Of a stretch of DNA of 64,000 bases, positions 7,851 through 57,475 are shown piece after piece. The first letter of the stretch is position 1. The number at the start of each line of letters is the position of its first letter. The notes under the pieces are model-generated. The model saw only the letters and a program-made list of their open reading frames with translations. It did not search any database and was not told where the DNA came from. The DNA comes from Neoarius graeffei (taxonomy: Eukaryota; Chordata; Actinopteri; Siluriformes; Ariidae). The stretch spans positions 44,780,559 to 44,844,558 of the forward strand of contig NC_083574.1 in NCBI RefSeq assembly GCF_027579695.1. Direction: 5' to 3'. Made by a program: the position numbers and the translations under genes.

Positions 7851-8819
7851 GCCAGCATTGGTAAAGAAGCACTTTTCTTGACAATTTTGTCAAAGTTGAC
7901 CTAACTCCACTAACTGGCTCAACATTTCCAGATTTTATAAAAACCCTTCCACTGTTTGGCTAAAGTCAGGCCAAAATCAGTAAAAAGCACTTTTTTTTAA
8001 ATCACCAACTTTGGCTCAGTGTTAGTCCAACGATGGCAAATGAACATGTTTCATAACAATCTTGCCCAGGTAGCCCAACGGACAAAATGTCTGCTAGTTT
8101 GAGACTTAAATTTGTGGTCGTTAACATTTCTATTCATTAACATTAGGGAATTGTTCAATTATCACATTGTGTTTATTGAAACAGCAATATAAGCATTTTA
8201 AACACGCTCTACCTAGATATCTAGTGTTAGTAAAGTACCTCACTGCCTTATCTTTTTTTCTTTATTTATTTTGCTGCTGTACCAATGTAAATTTCCCCTT
8301 GTGGGATAATAAAAAGCTCTTATCTTTTCTTATCCTCAGGTAGACCTGAATGGGATTTCAGCATCAAGTGAGTCTCAATTTTGCATTGTTCAAGTAATCT
8401 GACTTGATAGATTTAACTATGTAGCTTATTTTATAATGAGCTAAGCTGAAAATGTAGCACTCCATTTAAACAATTTAAAAACTATATTTTATTGTCAATT
8501 ATTTTAAAGCACAATATTAATGCCTACTCAAATTAGCATGTCTAGAGCTTGCTTCTGGTTTGAATCAGCTTGAGTGACTCTAGCTTTTCTAACTTTTTTC
8601 TTTTATCTTGTTTATGAACTTTTTTCACAGTACAAAAACACTTAATGACACTGGTGAGCCAAGAAGTGCTTTGAAGTATCAAACTCATTTGTGTGTGTAT
8701 CATTTATTTATAGGTATGACTATAACTATCAGCCAAAAGGAATGGAATAACCTAATTCACACATTACCAAATAAAACACACAGCTCACCTCAAGTAAATT
8801 TATAAGTGAAAATTTAGAA
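7851..8819. other. No gene recognised
   Basis: AT-rich text with a few decayed repeat-like phrases such as GTAAAGAAGCAC and GTAAAAAGCAC. The plus-strand frame at 8608-8805 has no recognisable domain. Confidence 0.45.
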
Positions 8820-9193
8820 AAACATGTACTAAAAATTAAGGAAAAGAGCGCAACGTTTCGGTGCCGCTTGGACACCATTATCAAGCGAGTATTCATAAGC
8901 TAAGTCAATGTCAAAACATAAAAATAGATTAGCATAATGCTAAACAAAAAGTTTGGCCTGTAAGGAGTCCAATTGCACACTGAGAGTTGGTCTTCTTTCT
9001 CTAATATCATGCATTTTGTACAACAAGCAGTCGAATTTACTCTGACACTTTCTTAAGACAACAAAGTTCTTGTTAATGTCTTTAGGTGCAATCCTGTGTG
9101 CTAGCCTATAGTGTTTACCGATGCTTGAAGACACGCCTTTATGCTCTTCAACATGCTCGTACAAGTGTCTACAGGTGGGATATAGTTTCAAAT
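8820..9193 (-). mobile_element. Penelope-like element 3' end, left inverted copy
   Basis: The minus-strand frame 8943-9191 ends (KNFVVLRKCQSKFDCLLY..., ...RRPTLSVQ) like the C-terminus of a retroelement protein with a GIY-YIG-type nuclease, followed by a 3' untranslated tail. The same sequence recurs inverted at 18780-19076. The Penelope assignment is by recognition; a DIRS or other retroelement tail is possible. Confidence 0.5.
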
Positions 9194-9263
9194 GTGACTC
9201 TTGTGATGAGAGTTATATTGGTTACACTTGCAGACACTTGTAAAGTGACCTTGAGTTTGAGAA
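9194..9263 (+). pseudogene. Fragment of GIY-YIG-like coding sequence
   Basis: On the plus strand this reads CDSCDESYIGYTCRHL then a stop (TAA near 9241). The Y-I-G segment is typical of the GIY-YIG nuclease start. It faces the minus-strand copy to its left, where TCRHLYEHVEEHKG follows. The arrangement suggests inversion within or between Penelope-like copies. Confidence 0.4.
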
Positions 9264-10902
9264 CCCTTATCAAAAAGAAGTATACTTCAAGTTCATTTTA
9301 TTAAATATACTGAAGTAAAGTTAAAGTATATTTCCTTAAGTATACTTTTGTGTACCATGTATACAGATATCATTGTACTTACAGTATACTTGTAAGTAAA
9401 CTACAACCCCGATTCCAAAAAAGTTGGGACAAAGTACAAATTGTAAATAAAAACGGAATGCAATAATTTACAAATCTCAAAAACTGATATTGTATTCACA
9501 ATAGAACATAGACAACATATCAAATGTCGAAAGTGAGACATTTTGAAATTTCATGCCAAATATTGGCTCATTTGAAATTTCATGACAGTAACACATCTCC
9601 CCTCCTAGAACTGCCACCTTATTGTGGTGGAGGGGTTTGTGTGCTTGAATGATCTTAGGAGCTATGTTGTCGGGGGCATTATGCCCCTGTTAGGGTCTCC
9701 CAAGGCAGACAGGTCCTAGGTGACAGGTCAGACCAAGAGCAGTTCACCAAAACCCTTATGGATAATAAAAGATCAAGGACCGTGACGTTGCCCAGGATGG
9801 CGCAGCCGGGGCCCCACCCTGGAGCCAGGCCCGGGGTCGGGGCTCGTATGCGAGCGTTTGGTGGCCAGGCCTTTGCCCACGGGGCCCGGCCAGGCTCAGC
9901 CCGAAGCGGTAATGTGGGCCCGACCTCCTGTGGATTCACCACCCACAGAGGTAGCCATAGGGGGCCGGTGCAGTGTGGCTTGGGCGGCAGTCAAAGGCAG
10001 GGGCCTCAACGACCTGATCCCTGAACACAGCGGCTAGCTGTTGGGACATGGAATGTCACTTCGCTGGGGGGGGGAGAGCCTGAGCTTGTGCGGGAGGTTG
10101 AGAGGTACCGGCTAGAGATAGTCAGGCTCATCTCCATGCACAGCTTGGGCTCTGGAACCTAGCTCCTCGAGAGGGGCTGGACTCCCCACTTCTCTGGAGT
10201 CACCCATGGTGAGCGGCAGCGGGCTGGTGTGGGCTTGCTTATAGCTCCCCAGCTCAGCTGCCATGTGAGTCTGAGTGGACCATGTTCTCTACCTCCATTG
10301 TGGATGCGGCTGTTCGGAGCTGTGACCGCAAGGTCTCCGGTGCCTGTCGTGGCAGCAATCCCTGAACCCGGTGGTGGACACCGGAAGTAAGGGAGGAGCT
10401 GAAGGAGGAGTCCCATCAGGCCATGTTAGCCTCCTGGACTCCTGAGGCAGCTGACGGGTATTGGCAGGCCAGGCGTGCCGCAGCTCGGGCAGTTGAGGAG
10501 GCAAAAACTCGGAACTGGGAGGAGTTCGGTGAGGCCATGGAGGAGGACTATCGGTCGGCCTCAAAGAAATTCTGGCAAACCATCTGGCGCCTCAGGAGGG
10601 GGAAGCAGTACTCTGCCAACACTGTTTACAGTGCGGGTGGGGAGCTGTTGGCAGGGATGTGATTTGAGGCTGGTGAAATTATCTGAAAATTTTAGGCGGG
10701 GGTCTGGGGGCCGCAGGCCCCCAGCTGGTCCAGGGCAGCGCCCTGGTGGGGGGACAAGGGGGGAAACCCCCCGAAGCTCCTGGGTTTTGGGGTTTTCTGA
10801 CTTAAAAATTGTACTAAAATGGCAAGCAAAACACACAAGAAAAAACTTGTCATGATTAACAAATTCAAGCCAATTTAATGGTCAACATGCAACTCTGACA
10901 CA

Positions 10903-10910
10903 CACGCTCA

Positions 10911-10972
<62 letters not shown>

Positions 10973-11080
10973 CACTCACACACTCACTCACACACACACA
11001 CACACTCTCACTCTCACTCACACACACACACACACACTCTCATACACACACTCACTCACTCACCCCCCCCCCCCCCCCCC
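10903..11080. repeat. CA/CTCA microsatellite followed by a C run
   Basis: Long (CA)n with CTCA interruptions runs into about 18 consecutive C residues at 11063-11080. This is a simple repeat inside the hAT-like element. Confidence 0.9.
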
Positions 11081-11394
11081 CAAAGAACCAGCGCGAGCAG
11101 GGCCTGCTAGCCCCGCGCCTTGGGACGTAATTCGCCCCAAGCCGAGCCGCGGTGCTCCGCTTAGGTTTCGTTTCTATCCCGGGCTCCAGCCCGACTTTGG
11201 ACGCTCGTAGCTCGGGCAGGAGAGGTCCCAGCATCCCCAAACTTGACAGCCAGAGACCTCTGCCCTCCCCCCAAAGAACGAAATCGCTAAACAAATGTCT
11301 CACAGTCTTATGTCCAACGTCTGTAGCAACCTCTTTCTCCAACCATTCCCAGCGGAACTTGTTTTTCACTATTCTGTCGATTTCTTTAACTCGA

Positions 11395-11680
11395 TTTGCA
11401 TCTTTACGCTCGATCACGGAGGCTGCCATCTTTCAACTCTTTGTTTGAAGCGAGCTTACGTACAGCTAACAAGCGCGTTCATTGGTTGTTACAGAGCGAT
11501 GGGCCAATCACGTACCTCGTTTCATCTCAATGACGTAATTGCGTAAATGACGTAATTACGTCAATGAGATGAAACGAGGTACGTGATTGGCCCATCGCGC
11601 TGTAACAACCAATGAACGCGCTTGCTTCAAACAAAGAGTTGAAAGATGGCAGCCTCCGTGATCAAGGCATAAAGATGCAA
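11395..11680. repeat. Large imperfect palindrome
   Basis: The left arm (about 11395-11540) is the reverse complement of the right arm (11554-11680), with a 13-base centre at 11541-11553. TGACGTAATT at 11531 pairs with AATTACGTCA at 11554. Further out, GGGCCAATCACGTACCTCGT and GGCTGCCATCTTTCAA both have partners. The left arm carries about 20 extra bases near 11451-11470. A third copy of the outer text is at about 11686-11708. Confidence 0.85.
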
Positions 11681-11826
11681 ATCTGAGGCTGCCATCTTTC
11701 AAACAAAGTCGGAACGAATAGGATACGAATGTGGATTTGAGGGAAAAATCGGAAACATTTTTTTTTTCAAGTTTTGAGGTGAAAAAAAGCGGAATTCCAT
11801 GAATTCGTGGAAAAATCACATCCCTG

Positions 11827-13481
11827 TGTTGACCTCGACTGGGGACATTGTCAGGCGGTGGAAGGAATACTTCGAGGATCTCCTCAATCCCACCATCACA
11901 TCTTCCATTGAGGAAGCAGAGGCTGATGACTCAGAGGTGGACTCATCCATAACCCAAGTCAAAGTCACTGAGGTGGTTTGCAAGCTCCTTGGTGGCAAGG
12001 CACCGGGGGTGGATGAGATCCGCCCTGAGTATCTCAAGTCTCTGGATGTTGTGGGGCTGTCTTGGCTGACACGCCTCTGTAACATTGCATGGTGGTCGGG
12101 GACAATGCCTCTGGAGTGGCAGACTGGGGTGGTGGTCCCTCTTTTTAAGAAAGGGGACCGGAGAGTGTGCTCCAATTATAGGGGAATCACACTTCTCAGC
12201 CTCCCTGGGAAGGTTTACTCCACGGTACTGGAGAGGAGAATTTGGCCAATAGTCGAACCTCGGATCCAGGAGGAACAATGCGGTTTTTGTCCTGGTCGTG
12301 GAACACTGGACCAGCTCTATACCCTTCATAGGGTGCTCGAGGGTTCATGGGAGTTTGCCCAACCAGTCCACATGTGCTTTGTGGATCTGGAGAAGGCATT
12401 CGACCGTGTCCCTTGTGGTATTCTGTGGGGGGTGCTTCAGGAGTATGGGGTTCGGGGCTCTTTGCTAAGGGCTGTCCGGTCCCTGTACGAATGGAGCAGG
12501 AGTCTGGTTCGCATTGCCGGCAGTAAGTCAGACCTGTTCCCAGTGCATGTTGGACTCTGGCAGGGCTGCCCTTTGTCACCGGTTCTGTTCATAATTTTTA
12601 TGGACAGAATTTCTAGGCACAGCCAGGGGCCGGAAGGAATCCTGTTTGGGAACCACAGGATTTCATCTCTGCTTTTTGCAGATGATGTTCTCCTGTTGGC
12701 TTCTTCAAACCAGGACCTTCAGCATGCACTGGGGCGGTTTGCAGTTGAGTGTGAAGCGGCTGGGGTGAGAATCAGCACCTCCAAGTCCGGGGCCATGGTT
12801 CTCAACCGGAAAAGGGTAGCTTGCCCTCTCCAGGTTGGTGGAGAAGTCCTGCCTCAAGTGGAGGAGTTTAAGTATCTCGGGATCTTGTTCACGAGTGAGG
12901 GAAGGATAGAGCATGAGATCGACAGGCGGATCAGTGCAGCCTCCGCAGTGATGCGGTTGCTTTACCGGTCCGTTGTAGTGAAGAAGGAGCTGAGCCAAAA
13001 GGCGAAGCTCTCGATTTACCGGTCGAGCTACGTTCCGACTCTCACCTGTGGTCATGAGCTTTGGGTAATGACCGAAAGAACAAGATCGTGGATACAAGCG
13101 GCCGAAATGAGTTTCCTTCGCAGGGTGGCTGGGCACTCCCTTAGAGATAGGGTGAGAAGCACAGTTACTCGGGAGGAGCTCGGAGTAGAGCCGCTGCTCC
13201 TCCACATTGAGGGGAATCAGCTGAGGTGGCTCAGGCATATCTTTCGGATGCCTCCTGGACGCCTCCCTGGGGAGGTGTTCCAGGCATGTCCCCCAGGGAG
13301 GAGACCCCGGGGAAACCCAGGACATGCTGGAGGGACTATGTCTCTCGGCTGGCCTGGGAACGCCTCGGTGTTCTTCCTGAGGAGCTGGCCGAGGTGTCTG
13401 GGTAAAGGGAAGTTTGGGCTTCCATGCTCAGACTGCTGCCTCCATGACCCGGCCCCGGATAAGCAGATGAAGACGAGATGA
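11827..13481 (+). pseudogene. LINE A reverse transcriptase (partial ORF2)
   Basis: One uninterrupted frame runs about 550 codons. It shows the reverse transcriptase motifs in order: PLFKKGDRRVCSNYRGI, motif A FVDLEKAFDRV near 12375-12410, motif B QGCPLSP near 12562, and motif C FADDV near 12677. It would copy element RNA at a nicked target. The apparent start codon at 11799 lies in the hAT-like insertion and is not original. The N-terminal endonuclease is mostly deleted. The C-terminus after RRPRGNP (about 13315) appears shifted out of frame. So the protein is incomplete and probably inactive. Confidence 0.85.
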
Positions 13482-13659
13482 GGCAACACATCTCAAAAAA
13501 AGCTGGGACGGGGCAATAAGAGGCTGGAAAAGTTAAAGGTACAAAAAAGAACAGCTGGAGGACCAAATTGCAACTCATTAGGTCAATTGGCAATAGGTCA
13601 TTAACATGACTGGGTATAAAAAGAGCATCTTGGAGTGGCAGCGGCTCTCAGAAGTAAAG

Positions 13660-14682
13660 ATGGGAAGAGGATCACCAATCCCCCTAATTCTGCACCGACA
13701 AATAGTGGAGCAATATCAGAAAGGAGTTCGACAGTGTAAAATTGCAAAGAGTTTGAACATATCATCATCTACAGTGCATAATATCATCAAAAGATTCAGA
13801 GAATCTGGAAGAATCTCTGTGCGTAAGGGTCAAGGCTGGAAAACCATACTGGGTGCCCATGATCTTCGGGCCCTTAGGCGGCACTGCATCACATACAGGC
13901 ATGCTTCTGTATTGGAAATCACAAAATGGGCTCAGGAATATTTCCAGAGAGCATTATCTGTGAACACAATTCACCGTGCCATCCGCCGTTGCCAGCTAAA
14001 ACTCTATAGTTCAAAGAAGAAGCCGTATCTAAACATTATCCAGAAGCGCAGATGTCTTCTCTGGGCCAAGGCTCATTTAAAATGGACTGTGGCAAAGTGG
14101 AAAACTGTTCTGTGGTCAGACGAATCAAAATTTGAAGTTCTTTATGGAAATCAGGGACGCCGTGTCATTCAAACTAAAGAAGAGAAGGACGACCCAAGTT
14201 GTTATCAGCGCTCAGTTCAGAAGCCTGCATCTCTGATGGTATGAGGTTGCATTAGTGTGCGTGGCATGGGCAGCTTATACATCTGGAAAGACACCATCAA
14301 TGCTGAAAGGTATATCCAGGTTCTAGAGCAACATATGCTCCCATCCAGACGACGTCTCTTTCAGGGAAGACCTTGCATTTTCCAACATGACAATGCCAAA
14401 CCACATACTGCATCAATTACAGCATCATGGCTGCGTAGAAGAAGGGTTCGGGTACTGAACTGGCCAGCCTGCAGTCCAGATCTTTCACCCATAGAAAACA
14501 TTTGGCGCATCATAAAATGGAAGATACGACAAAAAAGACCCAAGACAGTTGAGCAACTAGAATCCTCCATTAGACAAGAATGGGTTAACATTCCTGTCCC
14601 TAAACTTGAGCAACTTGTTTCCTCAGTCCCCAGACATTTACAGACTGTTGTAAAGAGAAAAGGGGATGTCTCACAGTGGTAA
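13660..14682 (+). pseudogene. Tc1 family A transposase, one nonsense codon
   Basis: ATG at 13660 opens a 340-residue frame, the normal Tc1 length. Only TGA at 14242-14244 interrupts it, where TGG (Trp in VWGC) is expected. The N-terminus has paired helix-turn-helix DNA-binding text (QCKIAKSLNISSSTVHNII). The DDE catalytic residues are present: Asp154 in LWSDES, Asp244 in QHDNAKPH, Glu279 in SPIENIW. Asp244 and Glu279 are separated by 34 residues (DD34E). A true active enzyme would cut and paste the element at TA sites. Confidence 0.9.
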
Positions 14683-15356
14683 ACATGGCCTTGTCCCAAC
14701 TTTTTTGAGATGTGTTGTTGTTGTCATGAAATTTAAAATCACCTAATTTTTCTCTTTAAATGATACATTTTCTCAGTTTAAACATTTGATATGTCATCTA
14801 TGTTCTATTCTGAATAAAATATGGAATTTTGAAACTTCCACATCATTGCATTCCATTTTTATTTACAATTTGTACTTTGTCCCAACTTTTTTTGGAATTG
14901 GGGCTGTAATCTAATACTTCTTGGGACTAAATTGGCCCATTTTTAATTTCTAAAAAGTATACTTTAAGTCTCAGAGAAGTAAACTCTGAGTATACAACTA
15001 GTATTTTTTATTTTGTACTGCAAGTATACCACAAGTAAACTTTTATATACTAATAGTTTACTAGTTTTATACTTGTAGTCCACTCTTTAGTTTACAAAAG
15101 CATACTCCATCACGGGCAATTGCTCTAAGACAACGAGGGAGGCTCAGCCTCCTCTAAAAATGACGAACATCGTGTAGGATGAATTGCGCTAGGCTTATGT
15201 TATAGCCGACCTTATAACATTGCTATTTCAGATCCAGAATCATAGAAATATATGTGTTCAACCCAACTACAGTGCGAAATCATTCCGTTATAACTTTCCC
15301 CAGTTCGCCTAATGTGCGCGTGAGTTTTTCCCCCTCGTGACAGCGTGATGCAGCCC

Positions 15357-15578
15357 AGCCTCAGTGGACTTCAGTGGCATTTGGGAGCTATGTGCTTTCA
15401 ATATCAAAATGCAAGACGATTATTGGACAAATACTGAGAAAACGCCCGCCCACCGGACTCCCAGCCTCAGTGGACTTCAATGGCATTTGGGAGCTATGCG
15501 CTTTTCAATCTCAAAATGCAAGATGGTTATTGGACAAATACTGCGAAAACACCCGCCCACGGACTCCCAGCTTCACAG
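15357..15578. repeat. Tandem duplication of ~109 bp
   Basis: Two adjacent copies share CAGCCTCAGTGGACTTCA, GGCATTTGGGAGCTATG, and ATTGGACAAATACTG. They differ at several positions. This lies upstream of the hAT-like reading frame, in what would be the 5' leader of the parent element. Confidence 0.8.
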
Positions 15579-15930
15579 TGGGAGGGACATGGCAGTTTCC
15601 GCGAGGAGACTGGTGATTGGTGAAAGCGGCCGGATATTTTCTTTGATTGACAGCTCGTTTCAAATATAGACAGGCAGCGGTGAATTTCAGTTCAGTCCCA
15701 TGAGGATTCGCAAGTGCTGTGGTGTATTGTAAAAGATCAGCTTACATTTCGATTTCATTCATTACATACGGTTTCTACCAGCTTTTTTAGTTTGTATTTA
15801 TTTTCATTGTAAATAAAGTGTAAATATAGTGTTGTCAAGTTTGCTATCTTAGTTCTAGAAATTTTGTTTATTTGAGTGACTGAACTTGAACTTGAGGGGG
15901 CTAGTCAGCTAGCAAGAAAGCTGCGCACGG

Positions 15931-16134
15931 ATGCCAAGCATTGCTGATTTAATTTTGGCGAAGCCATTTGCCAGTCTTCCTTTCGAGGAAAAAATTAAAA
16001 TTAAAGAGCAGGGTAGACCAATGCCTCAAATTGACTTGGTGAAAAAGGTAGGGAATAATACTCATTCCTTTCAGCTCTCCTGGTACGAGAAAGTGAATTG
16101 GCTAACAGCAAGTGACCCACATCAACAACAGTAA
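15931..16134 (+). pseudogene. N-terminal fragment of a TTF-type zinc-finger hAT transposase
   Basis: A 67-residue frame starts MPSIADLILAKPFASLPFEE and includes FQLSWYEKVNWLTAS. That phrase matches the beginning of the TTF-type zinc finger of ZMYM1-like/hAT transposases (consensus wording FQxxWxxxxxWL). The frame stops at TAA after DPHQQQ, before the cysteines. It is the first exon or a truncated remnant of the parent transposase. It supports the hAT assignment of 15111-18198. Confidence 0.6.
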
Positions 16135-16391
16135 ATAGGCTACTTTAGTAATATGTCATGGATGGACCAAAAATATAGAATCTATTTAAAATGTTTATGC
16201 TGAGTATATTATATTGGAATATATATTTCTCTGGATATGAATTAAACACAGCTACAATTTGGAAAACATTTTTAAACAAAAACACAGCCAAGAACATTTC
16301 ACACTACAGACCTGGATTAAAAGTGAAGGGTTATCAAAATTGTCAATAAAACATTTCTCAGTCAAAATAAGTAAAATATAGGGAAAGTGTC

Positions 16392-16757
16392 TCATCTCAT
16401 TATCTCTAGCCGCTTTATCCTGTTCTACAGGGTCACAGGCAAGCTGGAGCCTATCCCAGCTGACTACGGGTGAAAGGCGGGGTACACCCTGGACAAGTTG
16501 CCAGGTCATCACAGGGCTGACACATAGACACAGACAACCATTCACATTCACACCTACGGTCAATTTAGAGTCACCAGTTAACCTAACCTGCATGTCTTTG
16601 GACTGTGGGGGAAACCGGAGCACCCGGAGGAAACCCACACGGACACGGGGAGAACATGCAGACTCCACACAGAAAGGCCTTCGCCGGCCACAGGGCTCGA
16701 ACCCGGACCTTCTTGCTGTGAGGCGACAGCGCTAACCACTACACCACCATGCCGCCC
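16392..16757 (-). mobile_element. tRNA-derived SINE, family 1, antisense
   Basis: The target duplication ATAGGGAAAGTGTC lies at 16378-16391 and 16758-16771. The tRNA-like head is at the right (CTAACCACTACACCACCATG on the plus strand), and the tail ATCTCATTATCTC is at the left. It is nearly complete. Confidence 0.9.
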
Positions 16758-17059
16758 ATAGGGAAAGTGTCATTGAATGAAATGTGTGGTACCCAGCTCT
16801 ATGTTTGGCTCCCCAAGGTCAGTGCTTGTACCTATGGAGCACTTGCATGTGACGTCACAGCCGATCCAGATTGTGACAGACGCCATTTTGTCGGTCAAAC
16901 GCCATATTTCCGCCTACTACTTCTACTTCTGGTTCTACTTCTGCTTCTACCTTTTCTTCTGGAAAAACCTACTATATACAATTCTACTACAACGGGTGCA
17001 GCTACAAGCTCTCCCTACCTGTGCACGTTTTTTTATGTTTTTTGTGTGTATTTTTGTGT

Positions 17060-17407
17060 GTTGTTCGTCTGTACCGGACTTCAATATCCACTACAACCGT
17101 ATGGACTTACTGGACATTGGTTTCCAGCAGAAAATGACGGTTTGTAGCGATTTCCATCGCATGCACAACATTCCAGACGAGATAGCGAGACCAGCGGGGT
17201 CTCCGTGGATTGTTATCGGAAGCAAAGCGAAGGAGGCGGCGCCGGGAGCGGAAGCAAAAGCGAGGCTGCAGGCAAAGCCGGCCTGTTGACTAAGCTCAGA
17301 AAACAGCCACTCAAACCTCCACTGCTAAGCCTCTACCTCTCCAACGCCAGATCCATGGTAAACAAGACGGACGATTTGGAATTACAGCTGGAATTACCTT
17401 ATTCTAT
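17060..17407 (+). pseudogene. Start of a LINE ORF2 inside the ISL2EU-like element
   Basis: The frame reads MDLLDIGFQQKMTV, then IPDEIARPAGSPWIVIGSK, and after a frame change near 17240 reads LTKLRKQPLKPPLLSLYLSN and ARSMVNKTDDLELQL. The last phrase is typical of the start of the endonuclease domain of fish LINEs (NARS...K.DEL). It then breaks off into unrelated text shared with copy 2. So a LINE 5' segment has become part of this DNA element. Confidence 0.5.
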
Positions 17408-17449
17408 TCTATTCTATAATCGGCTGGTCAGTGCTATACTCAATACTTA

Positions 17450-17784
17450 AGTGACTTACCCATCCAGTGAGGATAATTTTCTTGTTTACAAGATGCCACA
17501 TCTGAGTCGCTGACAAATCCTGAATTTCTGTAAAGATAACTGTCCAGAGATTTATAAGCACGCAGTGCTTCACCACTGAACAGCGAGGGAAAGTTAATGA
17601 GGTAATTATACACGTCTGGGTATTCCACCTCTGGCAGTTCAATATCCACTGACACGGTCGTGAAAACTACGTCCGGTAAGCCATAAGGGTCACTAATCTG
17701 TAGATCGTTTATTTTAGACATATATCTAGTTATCTGTTCATTAGAAAAATGAGCCGTGTAGTCCGTCGGTTGAAATTGATCCAT
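17450..17784 (-). pseudogene. First exon resembling fish SWIM/YqaJ transposon protein
   Basis: On the minus strand a frame starts MDQFQPTDYTAHFSNEQIT at 17784 and runs through LPEVEYPDVYNYLINFPS and LRAYKSLDSYLY. It reaches PHWM, immediately followed by GGTAAGT, a good 5' splice donor at about 17450. The YNYLIN..S...L.AYKSL.AY phrase is typical of proteins with SWIM and YqaJ-nuclease domains encoded by fish transposons. No further exons are present, so it is a remnant first exon. Confidence 0.5.
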
Positions 17785-18779
17785 TCTGTACACGAGTGCA
17801 GCAGTATTCAGCTGTGTTTTTTACCGACAAGATGGCGGCTGTGTACTTTCCGGTCACGTGACTGCAAGATCTCTATTCCAGAACACTCTGCTGTTACTGC
17901 TGAGGTTCCTGACAAAGAGCTGCTTTCAATAATGATCAATTTTTAAACAACATGCCACAATTTTAAAATATAAAATGTTAAAATATACCCCCCCCAACAC
18001 CACCATCATGTATATTGGACAGTAGGCTAATGGGCCAAAAGAACCTGTTATTTCACAGTTTGTGACCCTGCCAACAATCAGCCAGATCAGAGGCAAGAGT
18101 ATGGGCAAAATTGATGTGTTTTTTCTTTTTTCTTTTAAAATCTGGAAATATCGTAACCGACCAGCCTCCCCTGTTTGAAAGACTACCAGCCGCCACTGTA
18201 CTCCATAGTATACTGGAAATATACTATGAGTTTACTTGTTTTATACTTCTCGTCCACTTTTTAAAGTATACTTTATAGCATATTGGAAATATACTATTTT
18301 TACTGGTTATATACATCTAGTCCACTTTTTAGTTTTGAAGTATACTGCAATTACCCTTCTAGGTACACTATTAGTTTTCTAGCCCTAACCCTTACCTCAT
18401 GCACACTACCAGTAGACAACTTAAGTGTTTTGAGCTGACCACAAACAGGATAAGCACACTTAAACATAAGGCACAAATATTTTAATACTTTATTACACTT
18501 GTGTTAAGTATATCTTGATCAAAAGTTTAAGTATAAGCTTAATATACTTAGACTTTTCTATATACTTTTCAGTATAAGCCAAGTATAGTTATGTATAACT
18601 ATTAAATATATCTCTGATAAGTAAATAAAAAGTAAACTGAAAGCATACTCTCTTATTTTTAGTTTAAAACAAGTATACTAGAAGCACACTTGAATAAACT
18701 TCTTTTTTGTAAGGGAAAGGTGCTATATAAATGTAACTTATTCTTCTCTTATTATTATTATTATTATTATTATTACTTA

Positions 18780-19076
18780 TAACAAGAACTTTGTTGCCTT
18801 AAGAAAGTGTTAGAGTAAATTCAACTGCTTGTTGTACGAAATACTCTACATTAGAGAAAGAAGACCAACTCTCAACATGAAATCGGACTCCTTTCAGGCC
18901 AAACTTTGTTTAGCATTATGCTAATCTATTTTTATATGTTTTGACATGGACTTAGTTTACAAACACTTGCTTGATAATGGTGTCTGAGCAGCACAGAAAC
19001 ATTGCGTTCTTTTCCTTAATTTTTAGTGCCATTTGTTTTTCTAAAAATTCACCTCAAATAAAGCAAATATTCTGGC
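18780..19076 (+). mobile_element. Penelope-like element 3' end, right copy
   Basis: This plus-strand copy (NKNFVALRKC-type translation from 18782, then the tail AAACATTGCGTTCTTTTCC) is the inverted partner of 8820-9060. The coding remnant has a stop near 18812. Together the two copies form a ~240-bp inverted repeat separated by about 9.7 kb of nested insertions. Confidence 0.5.
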
Positions 19077-19095
19077 ACATCTTATCTTTTGTGCT

Positions 19096-19128
<33 letters not shown>

Positions 19129-19770
19129 ATGCACATGTGGGGGACTAATGCTAGATGATAGGTTTCCTCTGCAATGTGCAAGATGAAGAGTCCATCAGGG
19201 GATTCACAGTCTTTGCTGATAGTTCAGCTGATTAAGAACCAATCCGGCAGTGGCACAGCTGAGAGGGCAGACACTCTTCTTCTCCCGTTCCTGCGTCTCT
19301 GGGGTAATCATAAATTACATTAGATATCCAATACAGGTGAGAGGAGAGAGAGGACAGCATCCAATCTCCATCCAATTTTACTATTCAATACAAGAAAAGA
19401 TTGTGAAATTGGCCTCTAAGGCAGCTGGTTCAGGTTGAGATCCAAGCTCTCCATGGACAAATTCACTGATTTTTTTTTTTTTTTGTGATTTATGATTGTT
19501 GGACTCAGCATGAACTAACGTGCAGTAATGCGTCAGAGCCTTGTAAGAGCAGTATATTACTTGCTCACTTGGGCTTGCTGATGGTGTAGTAGCTGGCTGC
19601 TTTATGTCCCGGGGCTCCCTCATGCCTGTGTTACCTTCTGGCTCGCCCCTTTTAGTTATGTTATCATAGTTTTGCCGGAGTCCCTGCTTGCACACAGCAC
19701 AAAATGTATACTGTTCCCACTCATCAGGTGACATTGTGCATACCTAAAAACCTGTGTTTTCTCTCTCTCT
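19077..19770. other. Unassigned stretch with (TG)n microsatellite
   Basis: (TG)n lies at about 19100-19127 and a T run at 19469-19484. The minus-strand frame 19381-19734 (117 aa, starts MSPDEWEQYTFCAVCKQ) has a Cys pair but no domain that I recognise, and its C-terminus is AT-rich. It could be a retroelement fragment next to the LINE tail that begins near 19796; this is unproven. Confidence 0.4.
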
Positions 19771-50217: not shown

Positions 50218-50599
50218 CATATTATACTACAACCCTGATTCCAAAAAAGTTGGGACAAAGTACAAATTGTAAATAAAAACGGAATGCAATAATTTACAAA
50301 TCTCAAAAACTGATATTGTATTCACAAAAGAACATAGACAACATATCAAATGTCGAAAGTGAGACATTTTGAAATTTCATGCCAAATATTGGCTCATTTG
50401 AAATTTCATGACAGCAACACATCTCAAAAAAGTTGGGACAGGGGCAATAAGAGGCTGGAAAAGTTAAAGGTACAAAAAAGGAACAGCTGGAGGACCAAAC
50501 TGCAACTCATTAGGTCAATTGGCAATAGGTCATTAACATGACTGGGTATAAAAAGAGCATCTTGGAGTGGCAGCGGCTGTCAGAAGTAAAGATGGGAAG

Positions 50600-52041
50600 T
50601 AGGGTTGGGCGGTATTACGGTAAGAAGGTATCCCGAGGTATCCAAAAGTACCAACGGTATCGGTCTCATTACCGTCATTTTAAAAATATATATAATATCT
50701 AAATAAATATGGAGTACATGAGGTCATAATATAAAATAATAAATTGAAGATCATCCCGAATAACTGTGTGATCGTATTTTCACTAATTCTATCAATTTCC
50801 TAAAGAAGTTCTCATCGCGTGCAGGGTTGTTTATGTCGTTACCATGGCAACCCTGCGTGACATTTGGAGTCTGACAGAAAGCTTCGCAAGAGACTGAGAC
50901 CAGGGGTGTCATGGCTCAGATGGTTAAGGCACCGTACCATAAATCCGGGAACCCGGGTTCGATTCCGACCCGAGGTTATTTCCCGATCCCGTCTCTCTCT
51001 CTCCCCCGCTCATTTCCTGTCTCTCTGTACTGTCCTATCTAAAAAAAAAAAGAGAGACTGAGACCGCGGTTGAAAGATGGCAAGTCAAGATAACGAGTCA
51101 GTGGCAAAAAAAAAATACAACATCGGCAGTGTGGCAGTATTTTGGTTTCAAACCAAACGAAAAATCTAATATGTCCCCTAAGGCACACCATAGCCTGGGG
51201 TACTCCACTTCCACGAGATCTCTCCAATGAGTTGTGTTTTGAGTAGGTTACATGAGTAACAACAAGGTAAAATAATATAACGTATGACATTTGAGATGTG
51301 GGTCATAAACGTTTGAAATGTCATCTACTGAAGAAACGGAAGAAAACATCGTAGCGTAAACTGTTCGGTTTCTGGTGGGAATTAGCAATGCGCTTGCTAT
51401 CTTTGTTGGGTGTGTTAAACCGTATGGATTTAAGTGGAATAATTGTAAGGAGTTATGTGATCAAGACAACGTTTTAAGCAAGGTAAGGCCATTTGATTAT
51501 TAATTTCCCCGCCATGGCATGACGTGGACCCATATGATTTTGCCTTGTGCAGCTATCACGCATTTGAATTAGGTTCGCCTCATTTGCGCTGAAGAATATG
51601 GTTTATCGCGCAGTCTAAACGGACTTGGGTGTTGGTTGATTCTTTCTCTTTTTTTTTTATTTCCCATGCTTGAAAGGGTATGATCCTGCTCATCGTGTAC
51701 TTTTTTTGATGGAGTAGGTGAAATAGTGCTGCAAATGCGTTTCAACGCACACATGTGTAAACGACAGTTGAATGCTATTTTCAAGATGAAGGAAGAGTTG
51801 CGTGATGCTTTGAAATATCTCTTAATCCATTCATCAATGCACAAAATTCGCTTTGCTGCTTAATCCATACCACAATGCACACAATTCGCTATGCTGCTTT
51901 TAAATAGTACATTTGAGGCATAGGCGCACGTTACACAGTAGGCTGAAACAAAATATTATTTTTTTCTCGGTAATACCGTATACCCCGGGAAAACACAGAG
52001 ACAGTTTAAAGGTATCAAAATTTGGATACCGCCCAACCCTA
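50600..52041. mobile_element. hAT element, TAGGGTTGGGCGGTAT termini
   Basis: ATGGGAAG at 50592-50599 and 52042-52049 is an exact 8-bp duplication. TAGGGTTGGGCGGTAT is perfectly inverted at 52026-52041. A SINE is inside (50902-51052). No transposase is seen. The duplicated target is the start codon region of the Tc1 transposase. Confidence 0.95.
50902..51052 (+). mobile_element. tRNA-derived SINE, family 4, with 13-bp duplication
   Basis: AGAGACTGAGACC at 50889-50901 and 51053-51065. The A box TGGCTCAGATGG and B box GGTTCGATTCC match the RNA polymerase III consensus exactly. The tail is poly A (51041-51051). Confidence 0.95.
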
Positions 52042-52487
52042 ATGGGAAGAGGATCACCAATCCCCCTAATTCTGCGCCGACAAAAAGTGGAGCAATATCA
52101 GAAAGGAGTTCGACAGTGTAAAATTGCAAAGAGTTTGAACACATCATCATCTACAGTGCATAATATCATCAAAAGATTCAGAGAATCTGGAAGAATCTCT
52201 GTGCGTAAGGGTCAAGGCCGGAAAACCATACTGGGTGCCCGTGATCTTCGGGCCCTTAGACGGCACTGCATCACATACAGGCATGCTTCTGTATTGGAAA
52301 TCGCAAAATGGGCTCAGGAATATTTCCAGAGAACATTATCTGTGAACACAATTCACCATGCCATCTGCCGTTACCAGCTAAAACTCTATAGTTCAAAGAA
52401 GAAGCCGTATCTAAACATGATCCAGAAGCGCAGACGTCTTATCTGGGCCAAGGCTCATTTAAAATGGATTGTGGCAAAGTGGAAAAC
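52042..52487 (+). pseudogene. Tc1 family A transposase, N-terminal part
   Basis: ATG at 52042 opens MGRGSPIPLILRRQKVEQYQ, with the helix-turn-helix QCKIAKSLNTSSSTVHNII intact. The frame is open to about 52487, where AKWKT runs into an ATT microsatellite. The catalytic Asp154 region is deleted. The C-terminal part is at 53341-53702. Confidence 0.85.
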
Positions 52488-53340
52488 TATTATTATTATT
52501 TTTATTTATTATTTATTATTATTATTATTTTATTTTATTTATTATTATTATTATTATTTTGAAGTTGTGTTCAACAAAAACGCAATGCGCGTGACATGAA
52601 CATGACATGAAATCCCACGAAACCTAATCCCGCGATAACTACTTCCGTAATTTGTCCAGACCAACCACAAACTTGCACATCATCCTTCAAACGGTCCAGC
52701 CAATCACATAATGTGACGTCACCAGCAGGTGCCGGAGTCCAAGCCGATCTGTAGATCTGATACTTACACTAAATCAACGTTGTTGCGAGCAGGTCACAAG
52801 AAGACTTTAACCCCCAAAATGTCCGCAAAAAGGAGAAAGGTAGATGCCGAATGCAGGGCTTTCAACAAAACATGGACTGCTAAGTATTTATTTACTGAAG
52901 TCAGAGATAAAGCCGTGTGTTTAGTTTGTGGAGAGCAGATCCGAAAAACTCCAAATGAGGTGATTAGACTACAAATGTGGGCATCATTATTATAATATGA
53001 TGTATCTTGCTTGATATTTGGAGGAGAAAGACAATATTGTGACGTCTTTATTGTGTTTTGGAGTGAATGTGACTGAAAAAAAAATGGTACAAACGTTCAT
53101 ATTTTGTTAACCATTGTTTTGAGAAATTTGATTGAATAAATTACATTTTTTGTAAGGCAACCTCATTTTTTCCATACTCTTACCAGTCTTAGCAGCTTGT
53201 AAAAACAATGTTATTTACTGCTTTATATAAAGAAATACAATTAATATTCTGCAGAATTTAGTTCAGCCTTTTGGTCCGGCCCTCCACAAAATTTTCTGTT
53301 TCTCATGTGGCCCCATGGAAAAAATAATTGCCCACCCCTG
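52487..53340 (+). mobile_element. hAT remnant, left end lost
   Basis: The right end (AATAATTGCCCACCCCTG, 53323-53340) is the complement of a typical CAGGGGTGGGCAATTATT hAT terminus. The left end is missing and is replaced by an ATT/TTTA microsatellite (52487-52560). Inside is the N-terminal coding part of a transposase. Confidence 0.7.
52819..52995 (+). pseudogene. N-terminal fragment of a hAT transposase (GTF2IRD2/ZBED-like)
   Basis: From ATG at 52819 the frame reads MSAKRRKVDAECRAFNKTWT, then AVCLVCGEQIRK. This resembles the N-terminus with a zinc-finger C..C of hAT transposases related to the domesticated tail of GTF2IRD2. It stops at TAA (52993-52995) before the histidines. A host gene is unlikely because it lies between hAT remnants inside a Tc1. 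Confidence 0.65.
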
Positions 53341-53702
53341 GTCTAGAGCAACATATGCTCCCATCCAGACGACGTCTCTTTCAGGGAAGACCTTGCATTT
53401 TCCAACATGACAATGCCAAACCACATACTGCATCAATTACAGCATCATGGCTGCGTAGAAGAAGGGTCCGGGTACTGAACTGGCCAGCCTGCAGTCCAGA
53501 TCTTTCACCCATAGAAAACATTTGGCGCATCATAAAACGGAAGATACGACAAAAAAGACCTAAGACAGTTCGGCAGCTAGAATCCTACATTAGACAAGAA
53601 TGGGTTAACATTTCTATCCCTAAACTTGAGCAACTTGTCTCCTCAGTCCCCAGACGTTTACAGACTGTTGTAAAGAGAAAAGGGGATGTCTCACAGTGGT
53701 AA
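53341..53702 (+). pseudogene. Tc1 family A transposase, C-terminal part
   Basis: Open from EQHMLPSRRRLFQGRP to SQW stop at 53702. It retains Asp in QHDNAKPH and Glu in SPIENIW. It belongs to the copy interrupted at 52487. Confidence 0.88.
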
Positions 53703-54209
53703 ACATGGCCTTGTCCCAACTTTTTTGAGATGTGTTGTTGTCATGAAATTTAAAATCACCTAATTTTTCTCTTTAAATGATACATTTTCCCAGTTTAAAC
53801 ATTTGATATGTCATCTATGTTCTATTCTGAATAAAATATGGAATTTTGTAATTTCCACATCATTGCATTCCGTTTTTATTTACAATTTGTACTTTGTCCC
53901 AACTTTTTTGGAATCGGGGTTGTAGATTAGATTAGATCAATAAAGTTTTAGATAATCTAATCTAGTATAATATGCATTTATCACAAAAATACATGTATGT
54001 ATTTATTATTTTGAAAACCCACCAGCTGACTGATCTGACACGTTTTAATTGTGCGACAGTAATGACGCAAATACCAGCGCGATGGTGTCCAAAAGTGTTT
54101 TTTCATTTTACCAATGAGCTCACTATACAGTCCTCTTTAGAGTAATTCCCTATATAGGGAATAGGGAGTAGTGAACGAGTGAGTGACTTCGGACACAAGG
54201 GATGACATC

Positions 54210-56063: not shown

Positions 56064-56348
56064 CATTAATAATTGAAATTAAGCAAATCTGGGTAGAAGT
56101 TATTATGCACCCTAGGTACCCCTACCTTCATGCCAGAATGAATTAAAATCGGTGAAGAATTAAGAGAGAAGCGATTTGTGTGGAAACTGCTCTTTAGGGC
56201 TTAATTACTCCATATCTTCATTATTAATTGCTATTATGCAAATTTGGGTAGAAGCTATAGAGATCTTGCAGTCACGTGACCGGAAAGTACACAACCGCCA
56301 TCTTGTCGGTCAAAAACACCGCTGAATACTGCTGCACTCGTGTACAGA

Positions 56349-56658
56349 ATGGATCAATTTCAACCGACGGACTACACGGCTCATTTTTCTAATGAACAGA
56401 TAACTAGATATATGTCTAAAATAAACGATCTACAGATTAGTGACCCTTATGGCTTTCCGGACGGAGTTTTCACGACCGGATTTTGAACTGCCAGCGGAAT
56501 ACCCGGACGTGTATAATTACCTCATTAACTTTCCCTCGTTGTTCAGTGGTGAAGCATTGCGTGCTTATAAATCTCTGCACAGTTATCTTTACAGAAATTC
56601 AGGATTTGTCAGCGACTCAGATGTGGCATCTTGTAAACAAGAATCCTCATTGGATGGG
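56349..56658 (+). pseudogene. SWIM/YqaJ-type first exon, copy 2, frameshifted
   Basis: Starts MDQFQPTDYTAHFSNEQIT at 56349. A deletion near 56475 shifts the frame compared with copy 1. The later part (YPDVYNYLINFPSLFSGE, LRAYKSLHSYLY) is intact, followed by a donor GGTAAGT near 56657. Confidence 0.5.
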
Positions 56659-56754
56659 TAAGTCACTTAAGTATTACTAGTACTGATACTAGATGCACTG
56701 ACCAGCCTATTATAGAATAGAATAAGGTAATTCCAAATCGTCCGTCTTGTTTAC

Positions 56755-57060
56755 ATGGATCTGGCGTTGGAGAGAGAGAGGCTTAGCAGTGGAGGTTTGA
56801 GTGGCTGTTTTCTGAGCTTAGTCAACAGGCCGGCTCTGCCTGCAGCTTCGCTTTTGCTTCTGCTCCCGGCGCTGCCTCCTTCGCTTTGCTTCCGATAACA
56901 ATCCACGGAGACCCCGCTGGTCTCGCTATCTCGTCTGGAATGTTTTTTTTTTTTCTCGTCCGGAATGTTGTGCATGCGATGGAAATCGCTACAAACCGTC
57001 ATTTTCTGCTGGAAACCAATGTCCAGTAAGTCCATACAGTTGTAGTGGATATTGAAGTCT
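56755..57060 (-). pseudogene. LINE ORF2 start inside the element, copy 2
   Basis: Minus strand: MDLLDIGFQQKMTV, HNIPDE, a T-run insertion near 56943-56955, then KLRKQPLKPPLLSL and NARSM. Same segment and same break as copy 1. Confidence 0.5.
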
Positions 57061-57475
57061 GATACAGACGAACAACACGCAAAAATACACACAAAAAACA
57101 TAAAAAACGTGCACAGGTAGGGAGAGCTTGTAGCCGCAGCCGTTGTAGTAGAATTGTATATAGTAGGGTTTTCCAGAAGAAAAGGTAGAAGTAAAAGCAG
57201 AAGTAGAACCAGAAGTAGAAGTAGAAGGCGGAATATGGCGTTTGACTGACAAGATGGCGTCTGTCACAATCTGGATTGGCTGTGACGTCACATGCAAGTG
57301 CTCCATATGCACCCCAGGCAGCTCTACCTTCCTGCCAAGAAGAATTAAAATTAGTGAAGAATGGAGAGAGAAGAAGAGATTTGTGTGGAAACTGCTTTTT
57401 AGGGCTTAATTAATCCTCTCTCTGGCAGTTGCTCATGACCGAGCACTAGAGTTCATGTCAGATCCGCCTCAGTTG

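Follow-up and report, generated by a model that had tools for sequence, protein, structure and literature searches.

The window analysed here is a 64,000-nucleotide stretch of Neoarius graeffei DNA (C6:44780559-44844558 of assembly G000), and it contains a nest of nine transposon insertions whose deepest chain runs to six levels. The nest is real, and its order can be checked layer by layer. From the outside in, the arms of a Penelope-like element (8799-9243 and 18780-19048) enclose a tail of the long interspersed nuclear element (LINE) type, and this encloses an inverted-repeat element rich in the motif AAGTATACTT (the AAGTATACTT element, 9264-18715). Two branches lie inside the latter: on the left a Tc1 element holding a LINE, which holds a hAT-like element, and on the right a hAT element holding a short interspersed nuclear element (SINE) and an ISL2EU-like element (Table 1). 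The nest is very probably the ordinary product of nine successive insertions, with the Penelope-like element outermost and first; it is well resolved yet ordinary for a transposon-rich genome.

The original prediction had described a nest with an order readable to four or five levels. Nesting and order stand, with six levels in fact, and the LINE-type tail had been overlooked. The boundaries of the eight elements it named hold on re-derivation by script. It had also proposed that restored sequences should align across the junctions to single elements; within the Penelope layer they do so wherever this was examined, which was at all junctions but the join between the tail and the Penelope arm. 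The boundaries and the target duplications are demonstrated, as is the fact that other copies run unbroken through the empty sites, while we infer the joint arrival of both Penelope arms, the loss of about 86 bases of the plus arm with the tail, and the enzyme that moved each copy.

The letters of 8400-19500 were read directly, boundaries and target duplications were re-derived by script, and each piece was compared first with the window and then with the genome. The genome comparisons used one assembly of 2,341,909,251 bases in 38 contigs, which is the basis of the whole reading, and scores were obtained for the best 40 candidate places per query. By their look, the element families resemble those of ray-finned fishes.

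Empty sites of the inner layers

Removal of the Tc1 copy at its predicted TA duplication restores a join in the AAGTATACTT element that is crossed in all 27 fetched copies of that element (27 of the 39 other listed places), in 24 of them ungapped. Once restored, the Tc1 (1608 bases) aligns end to end, at 96.8%, with an uninterrupted copy in L058. Its transposase frame of 340 codons is interrupted by a single stop codon at 14242, and the pieces on each side of the stop, searched separately, gave the Tc1/mariner domains PAX (3.1e-08), HTH_23 (4.7e-08) and DDE_3 (2.7e-12).

The insert within the Tc1 is assigned to the LINEs by its reverse transcriptase (RVT_1, 2.9e-34) and its variable-length target duplication (12 bp, one difference). 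This duplication, predicted as AACACATCTC, is better read as GTAACACATCTC on the left and GCAACACATCTC on the right. When the LINE is removed, the join matches a second Tc1 copy in the window (50276-50572) at 291 of 298 positions; because that copy has GCAACACATCTC once, with GC there, we take the duplication to be 12 bp long, its left copy having changed from C to T. The LINE is about 645 bases short near 10266, upstream of the reverse transcriptase, when compared with its relatives, and from its look it may belong to the RTE clade.

The hAT-like element lies within the LINE as predicted. Its 14 terminal bases are identical at 14 of 14 positions and it is flanked by TGTTGG and TGTTGA; inverted ends with a duplication of 5-8 bp are those of hAT elements, and hAT families with 5- and 6-bp duplications are described in the available portions of PMC4482050 and PMC12730594. 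With the element removed, all 40 scored places (from 2741 candidates) cover positions 1-238 of 240 at 96-98%. The exact anchor word is present in 8 of 10 fetched LINE copies, and all eight read GAGCTGTTGACCTC (TGTTGA). The hAT-like element itself is 98-99% identical to 39 others over 250 bases. It contains a long palindrome whose arms measure 75 and 47 bases and are each 96% complementary.

The AAGTATACTT element, host to both branches, has AA on both sides, at the borders originally proposed, and ends in CCCTTA..TAAGGG, with a similarity extending by eye over about 27 bases. Twelve fetched copies with both ends measure 1116-1377 bases, inserts counted. Near 18432-18440, where the window copy has no such sequence, five of six copies carry 280-315 bases and L002 carries 111. 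Its 2-bp duplication, variable in sequence and exact in six of 13 copies, and the motif repeated near its ends resemble the CMC transposons, which have 2-4 bp duplications in the available portion of PMC4482050; unlike these it lacks a protein, and its ends differ from the CA..TG type of CMC (CACTA-like) elements. We leave it unclassified, a relation to CMC being a guess that the ends do not fit. A literature search with AAGTATACTT returned unrelated papers only.

In the other arm, removal of the hAT element leaves the two sides exactly adjacent in six of seven copies of the AAGTATACTT element, and the join aligns across in 24 of the 27 fetched copies. The predicted duplication TACTCCAT is one of three 8-bp duplications found in three of three copies of this hAT family, the others being CTACAGAT (L060) and CCTAAGTG (L059). 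This length is shared with the hAT transposons in the available portions of PMC4482050 and PMC12730594; unlike them, the element gave no transposase domain in the single 67-residue piece searched (Pfam, 0.01).

Both elements predicted inside the hAT are present. When they are removed together, all 40 scored places (from 357 candidates) cover at least positions 1-318 of 320 at 99%. The SINE has an exact 14-bp duplication, with a tRNA-like head and a LINE-like tail judged by eye. The end of the SINE (16392-16405) and that of the LINE in the left branch (13470-13482) have similar GAGATGAG-type tails by eye, which suggests that the SINE was moved by the machinery of this LINE. The ISL2EU-like element has AT at 16834-16835 and 17875-17876, and a second AT-flanked copy, 89.8% identical, lies at 56259-57304 within locally repeated sequence. 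The AT duplication of both window copies agrees with the ISL2EU group of PHIS transposons in the available portion of PMC4482050; unlike that group the window element is non-autonomous, and one 114-residue piece gave no Pfam match to a transposase or YqaJ domain, so we call it ISL2EU-like only.

Table 1. Features of the nest, in window coordinates.
Feature	Position	Strand	Basis
Penelope left target duplication TCACCTCAAGTAAA	8785-8798	+	13/14 vs 19049-19062
Penelope-like minus arm (end of endonuclease frame and 3' end, 3' end leftward)	8799-9178	-	86.2% to plus arm
Penelope-like plus arm, start (GIY-YIG-like motif)	9167-9243	+	collinear with arm in 7/7 fetched copies, inverted here
LINE-type tail, left part	9239-9263	+	joined tail at 40/40 scored places
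AAGTATACTT element, left part	9264-9403	+	40 scored places including itself; 27 copies fetched
Tc1 (9404-9599 and 13483-14906), TA duplication; transposase frame 13660-14682	9404-14906	+	re-derived borders, domains, copies
LINE left duplication GTAACACATCTC; right copy 13483-13494 (GCAACACATCTC)	9588-9599	+	re-derived by script
LINE (9600-10651 and 11827-13482), reverse transcriptase domain	9600-13482	+	RVT_1 2.9e-34
hAT-like non-autonomous element, TGTTGG/TGTTGA duplication, palindrome 11393-11683	10652-11826	.	ends, empty sites
AAGTATACTT element, middle part	14907-15110	+	copy alignments
hAT, duplication TACTCCAT (15103-15110, 18199-18206)	15111-18198	+	re-derived borders, copies
SINE left duplication ATAGGGAAAGTGTC; right copy 16758-16771	16378-16391	+	14 bp, exact
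SINE	16392-16757	-	13 further window matches
ISL2EU-like element, AT both sides	16836-17874	-	89.8% to 56259-57304
AAGTATACTT element, right part	18207-18715	+	copy alignments
LINE-type tail, right part with (TTA)n	18716-18779, right limit approximate	+	same join test
Penelope-like plus arm, remainder (3' end rightward)	18780-19048	+	comparison with minus arm; adjoining repeat
Penelope right target duplication TCACCTCAAATAAA	19049-19062	+	13/14 vs left copy

The outer layers

The immediate host of the AAGTATACTT element is a short high-copy sequence, reading TTGTAAAGTGACCTTGAGTTTGAGAAAGGTGCTATATAAATGTAACTTATT when its two sides are joined, which we take from its resemblance to be a LINE 3' tail. 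With the AAGTATACTT element removed, the join is crossed at all 40 scored places (from 1613 candidates) at 92-100%.

Outside this tail the original prediction placed Penelope-like halves. The pieces exist, but complementary halves are ruled out, since both cover the same region in inverted orientation (86.2% over 275 columns) with their 3' ends outward. A 14-bp direct repeat with 13 of 14 matches, TCACCTCAAGTAAA and TCACCTCAAATAAA, had been overlooked and abuts the outer ends of both arms. In a random control, one of 2000 pairs of 37-base zones equalled this repeat, the zones having been chosen after the repeat was seen. Of six other Penelope copies with a readable 3' end, three have ...TTCACTTAT at this position and three stop short of it, so the repeat does not belong to the element. 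The piece 9167-9243 is inverted relative to 8799-9178 in the window, adjoins it in collinear orientation at 27 of 39 other primary places, and is collinear with 18780-19048; we interpret it as the point where the two arms of a head-to-head insertion meet, the plus arm resuming at 18780. It contains CDSCDESYIGYTCRHL, presumably a GIY-YIG endonuclease motif, and a 90-residue piece of the minus strand gave no Pfam match. No hammerhead ribozyme of the terminal repeat was matched by Rfam in the window at the gathering score, only a 3' fragment of the element being present.

The pieces are most likely the two arms of a single head-to-head insertion with a 14-bp target duplication. Close inverted Penelope pairs elsewhere in the genome are head-to-head in ten of ten cases (C1, C5, C7, C8, C9, C11, C16, C23, C27 and C29), and three further head-to-head pairs that were fetched (L068, L069 and L070) all have exact outer direct repeats, as expected of Penelope-like elements. 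These measure 14, 12 and 11 bp respectively by reading the letters and at least 13, 11 and 11 bp by script, and that of L070 is of low complexity. The plus arm of the L070 pair (L070:39-558) lacks the 3' end of the element, as if reverse transcription had started within the RNA.

Alternatively, the outer pieces could have inserted independently of each other, the left piece having undergone a twin-priming type of 5' inversion, with the rest of the nest lying between them by chance. The inversion of 9167-9243 relative to 8799-9178, with overlapping 5' limits, is a twin-priming outcome, and the similarity between the arms is no greater than that between unrelated copies. We consider this explanation unlikely, however, since the 13/14 repeat abuts the outer end of both arms, the piece 9167-9243 is collinear with 18780-19048, and head-to-head pairs with exact repeats recur across the genome.

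Recurrent head-to-head insertions with target duplications bear on the insertion mode of these elements. The available portion of PMC3846280 describes Penelope-like elements with an inverted terminal copy, for which its authors prefer self-priming as the cause. The animal elements described there are likewise inverted head to head and 5'-truncated, with target duplications that are short (8-10 bp), whereas here we find 3' fragments only, with repeats of 11-14 bp, and the window copy has no reverse transcriptase part. In vitro, cutting and extension of both strands have been found for an Anolis element (PMC11167929, available portion), and such activity could directly give the head-to-head arrangement. 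We raise as a tentative and rather unlikely proposal that these insertions form when reverse transcription starts at both sides of a single staggered cut, with two different RNA copies as templates, and not by self-priming on one molecule. The proposal would fit the near-intact 11-14 bp duplications, arms 9-18% apart (15/170, 32/268 and 14/79), the constant head-to-head order, and the L070 plus arm without a 3' end. Among shared variable columns, paired arms disagree in 13 of 23 in the window, 5 of 19 in L068 and 5 of 14 in L069, L070 being excluded as its arms scarcely overlap. C/T or G/A changes of the sort left by recurrent CpG decay make up most of these differences, and such decay may be the source of much of the arm difference. 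We do not accept the arm differences as proof of two templates, since they are mostly of this kind and the partner arm ranks 3 of 20 in closeness in L068, where it is nearly the closest copy.

Order of insertion and family history

Several observations weigh against the reading of nine successive insertions. The restriction of scores to the best 40 candidates favours good matches. The duplication of the hAT-like element agrees at only five of six positions, and among the 13 copies of the AAGTATACTT element with both ends found (12 fetched and the window copy, of 28) the 2-bp duplication is exact in six (CA, TA, TA, GG, TC and AA in the window) and inexact in seven. The hAT join shows 2-15 gaps, as it falls in short tandem repeats, and three of the 27 copies do not align there. 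The window Penelope arms differ at 32 of 268 columns, and their closeness to each other does not exceed that to unrelated copies (rank 15 of 20; 19 of 22 in L069). Around the tail there is no clear duplication, and the plus arm is about 86 bases short when judged against fetched copies; because of the missing bases and the unclear duplication, this second layer is the least secure. Finally, divergence is out of step with nest order: differences from relatives are 25/824 for the AAGTATACTT element, 33/1604 for the Tc1 and 55/1631 for the LINE, with 39 mismatches in 1668 columns between the hAT and L060. Divergence was rejected as a clock for the layers, as the LINE differs more than its host Tc1.

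Chronology from nested insertions is published (TinT, interruption analysis; PMC3014933, PMC2517846 and PMC5657132), and in the available portions of these papers, as here, activity is ordered by who interrupts whom. One insertion dates one copy, not a family, and the nest is a partial order of single insertions. Those methods reportedly pool very many interruptions, whereas the present case is a single locus with nine insertions. The order reads Penelope-like element, tail, AAGTATACTT element, and then Tc1, LINE and hAT-like element in one branch and hAT followed by SINE and ISL2EU-like element in the other. In this branching tree the SINE and the ISL2EU-like element are unordered, as are the two chains relative to each other, and 40 orders remain.

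The original prediction had drawn from the nest a relative chronology of seven families, having itself named eight. Each nested pair does give the true order of two insertions. The order is only partial, however, and divergences do not track it; whole or part SINEs lie inside 5 of the 27 fetched AAGTATACTT copies (an ISL2EU copy inside 1 of 27), and conversely the AAGTATACTT copy L021 sits in a SINE. Since SINEs and AAGTATACTT copies are nested in both directions, family activity overlapped, and the nest is very unlikely to record a chronology of families. That part of the arrangement is an artefact of assembly or recombination is more improbable still: high-copy repeats are hard to assemble and one assembly was used, but mis-joins would not produce the clean ends and fitting duplication of each inner insertion.

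Taken together, these data very probably reflect the following order of events. A Penelope-like retroelement entered first, most likely as one head-to-head insertion, 3' ends outward, with a 14-bp target duplication, and a short 5'-truncated LINE-type tail came to rest within the plus arm. This tail was next entered, with a 2-bp duplication, by the inverted-repeat element rich in AAGTATACTT. In the left branch of that element a Tc1 copy settled at TA, the Tc1 took up a LINE, presumably through target-primed reverse transcription, and the LINE took up the non-autonomous hAT-like element. In the right branch a hAT entered with an 8-bp duplication and received the SINE and the ISL2EU-like element. 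The nest offers a clean worked example of nested insertion in a transposon-rich genome and puts to the test the reading of target duplications from raw sequence alone. The predicted boundaries held up; the predicted outermost layer failed, as did the move from single copies to a history of families.

Other observations in the window

An Rfam scan of the window gave no matches at the gathering score, and the Tc1 end gave none in a viral_contigs scan or in a literature search. The second Tc1 copy is itself the base of another nest, similar in style, at 50230-53922. At the transposase start of this Tc1 a hAT-like element (50600-52041) is flanked by an exact 8-bp duplication, ATGGGAAG, and holds a SINE-like insert with the duplication GAGACTGAGACC; one more insert lies at about 52492-53341.

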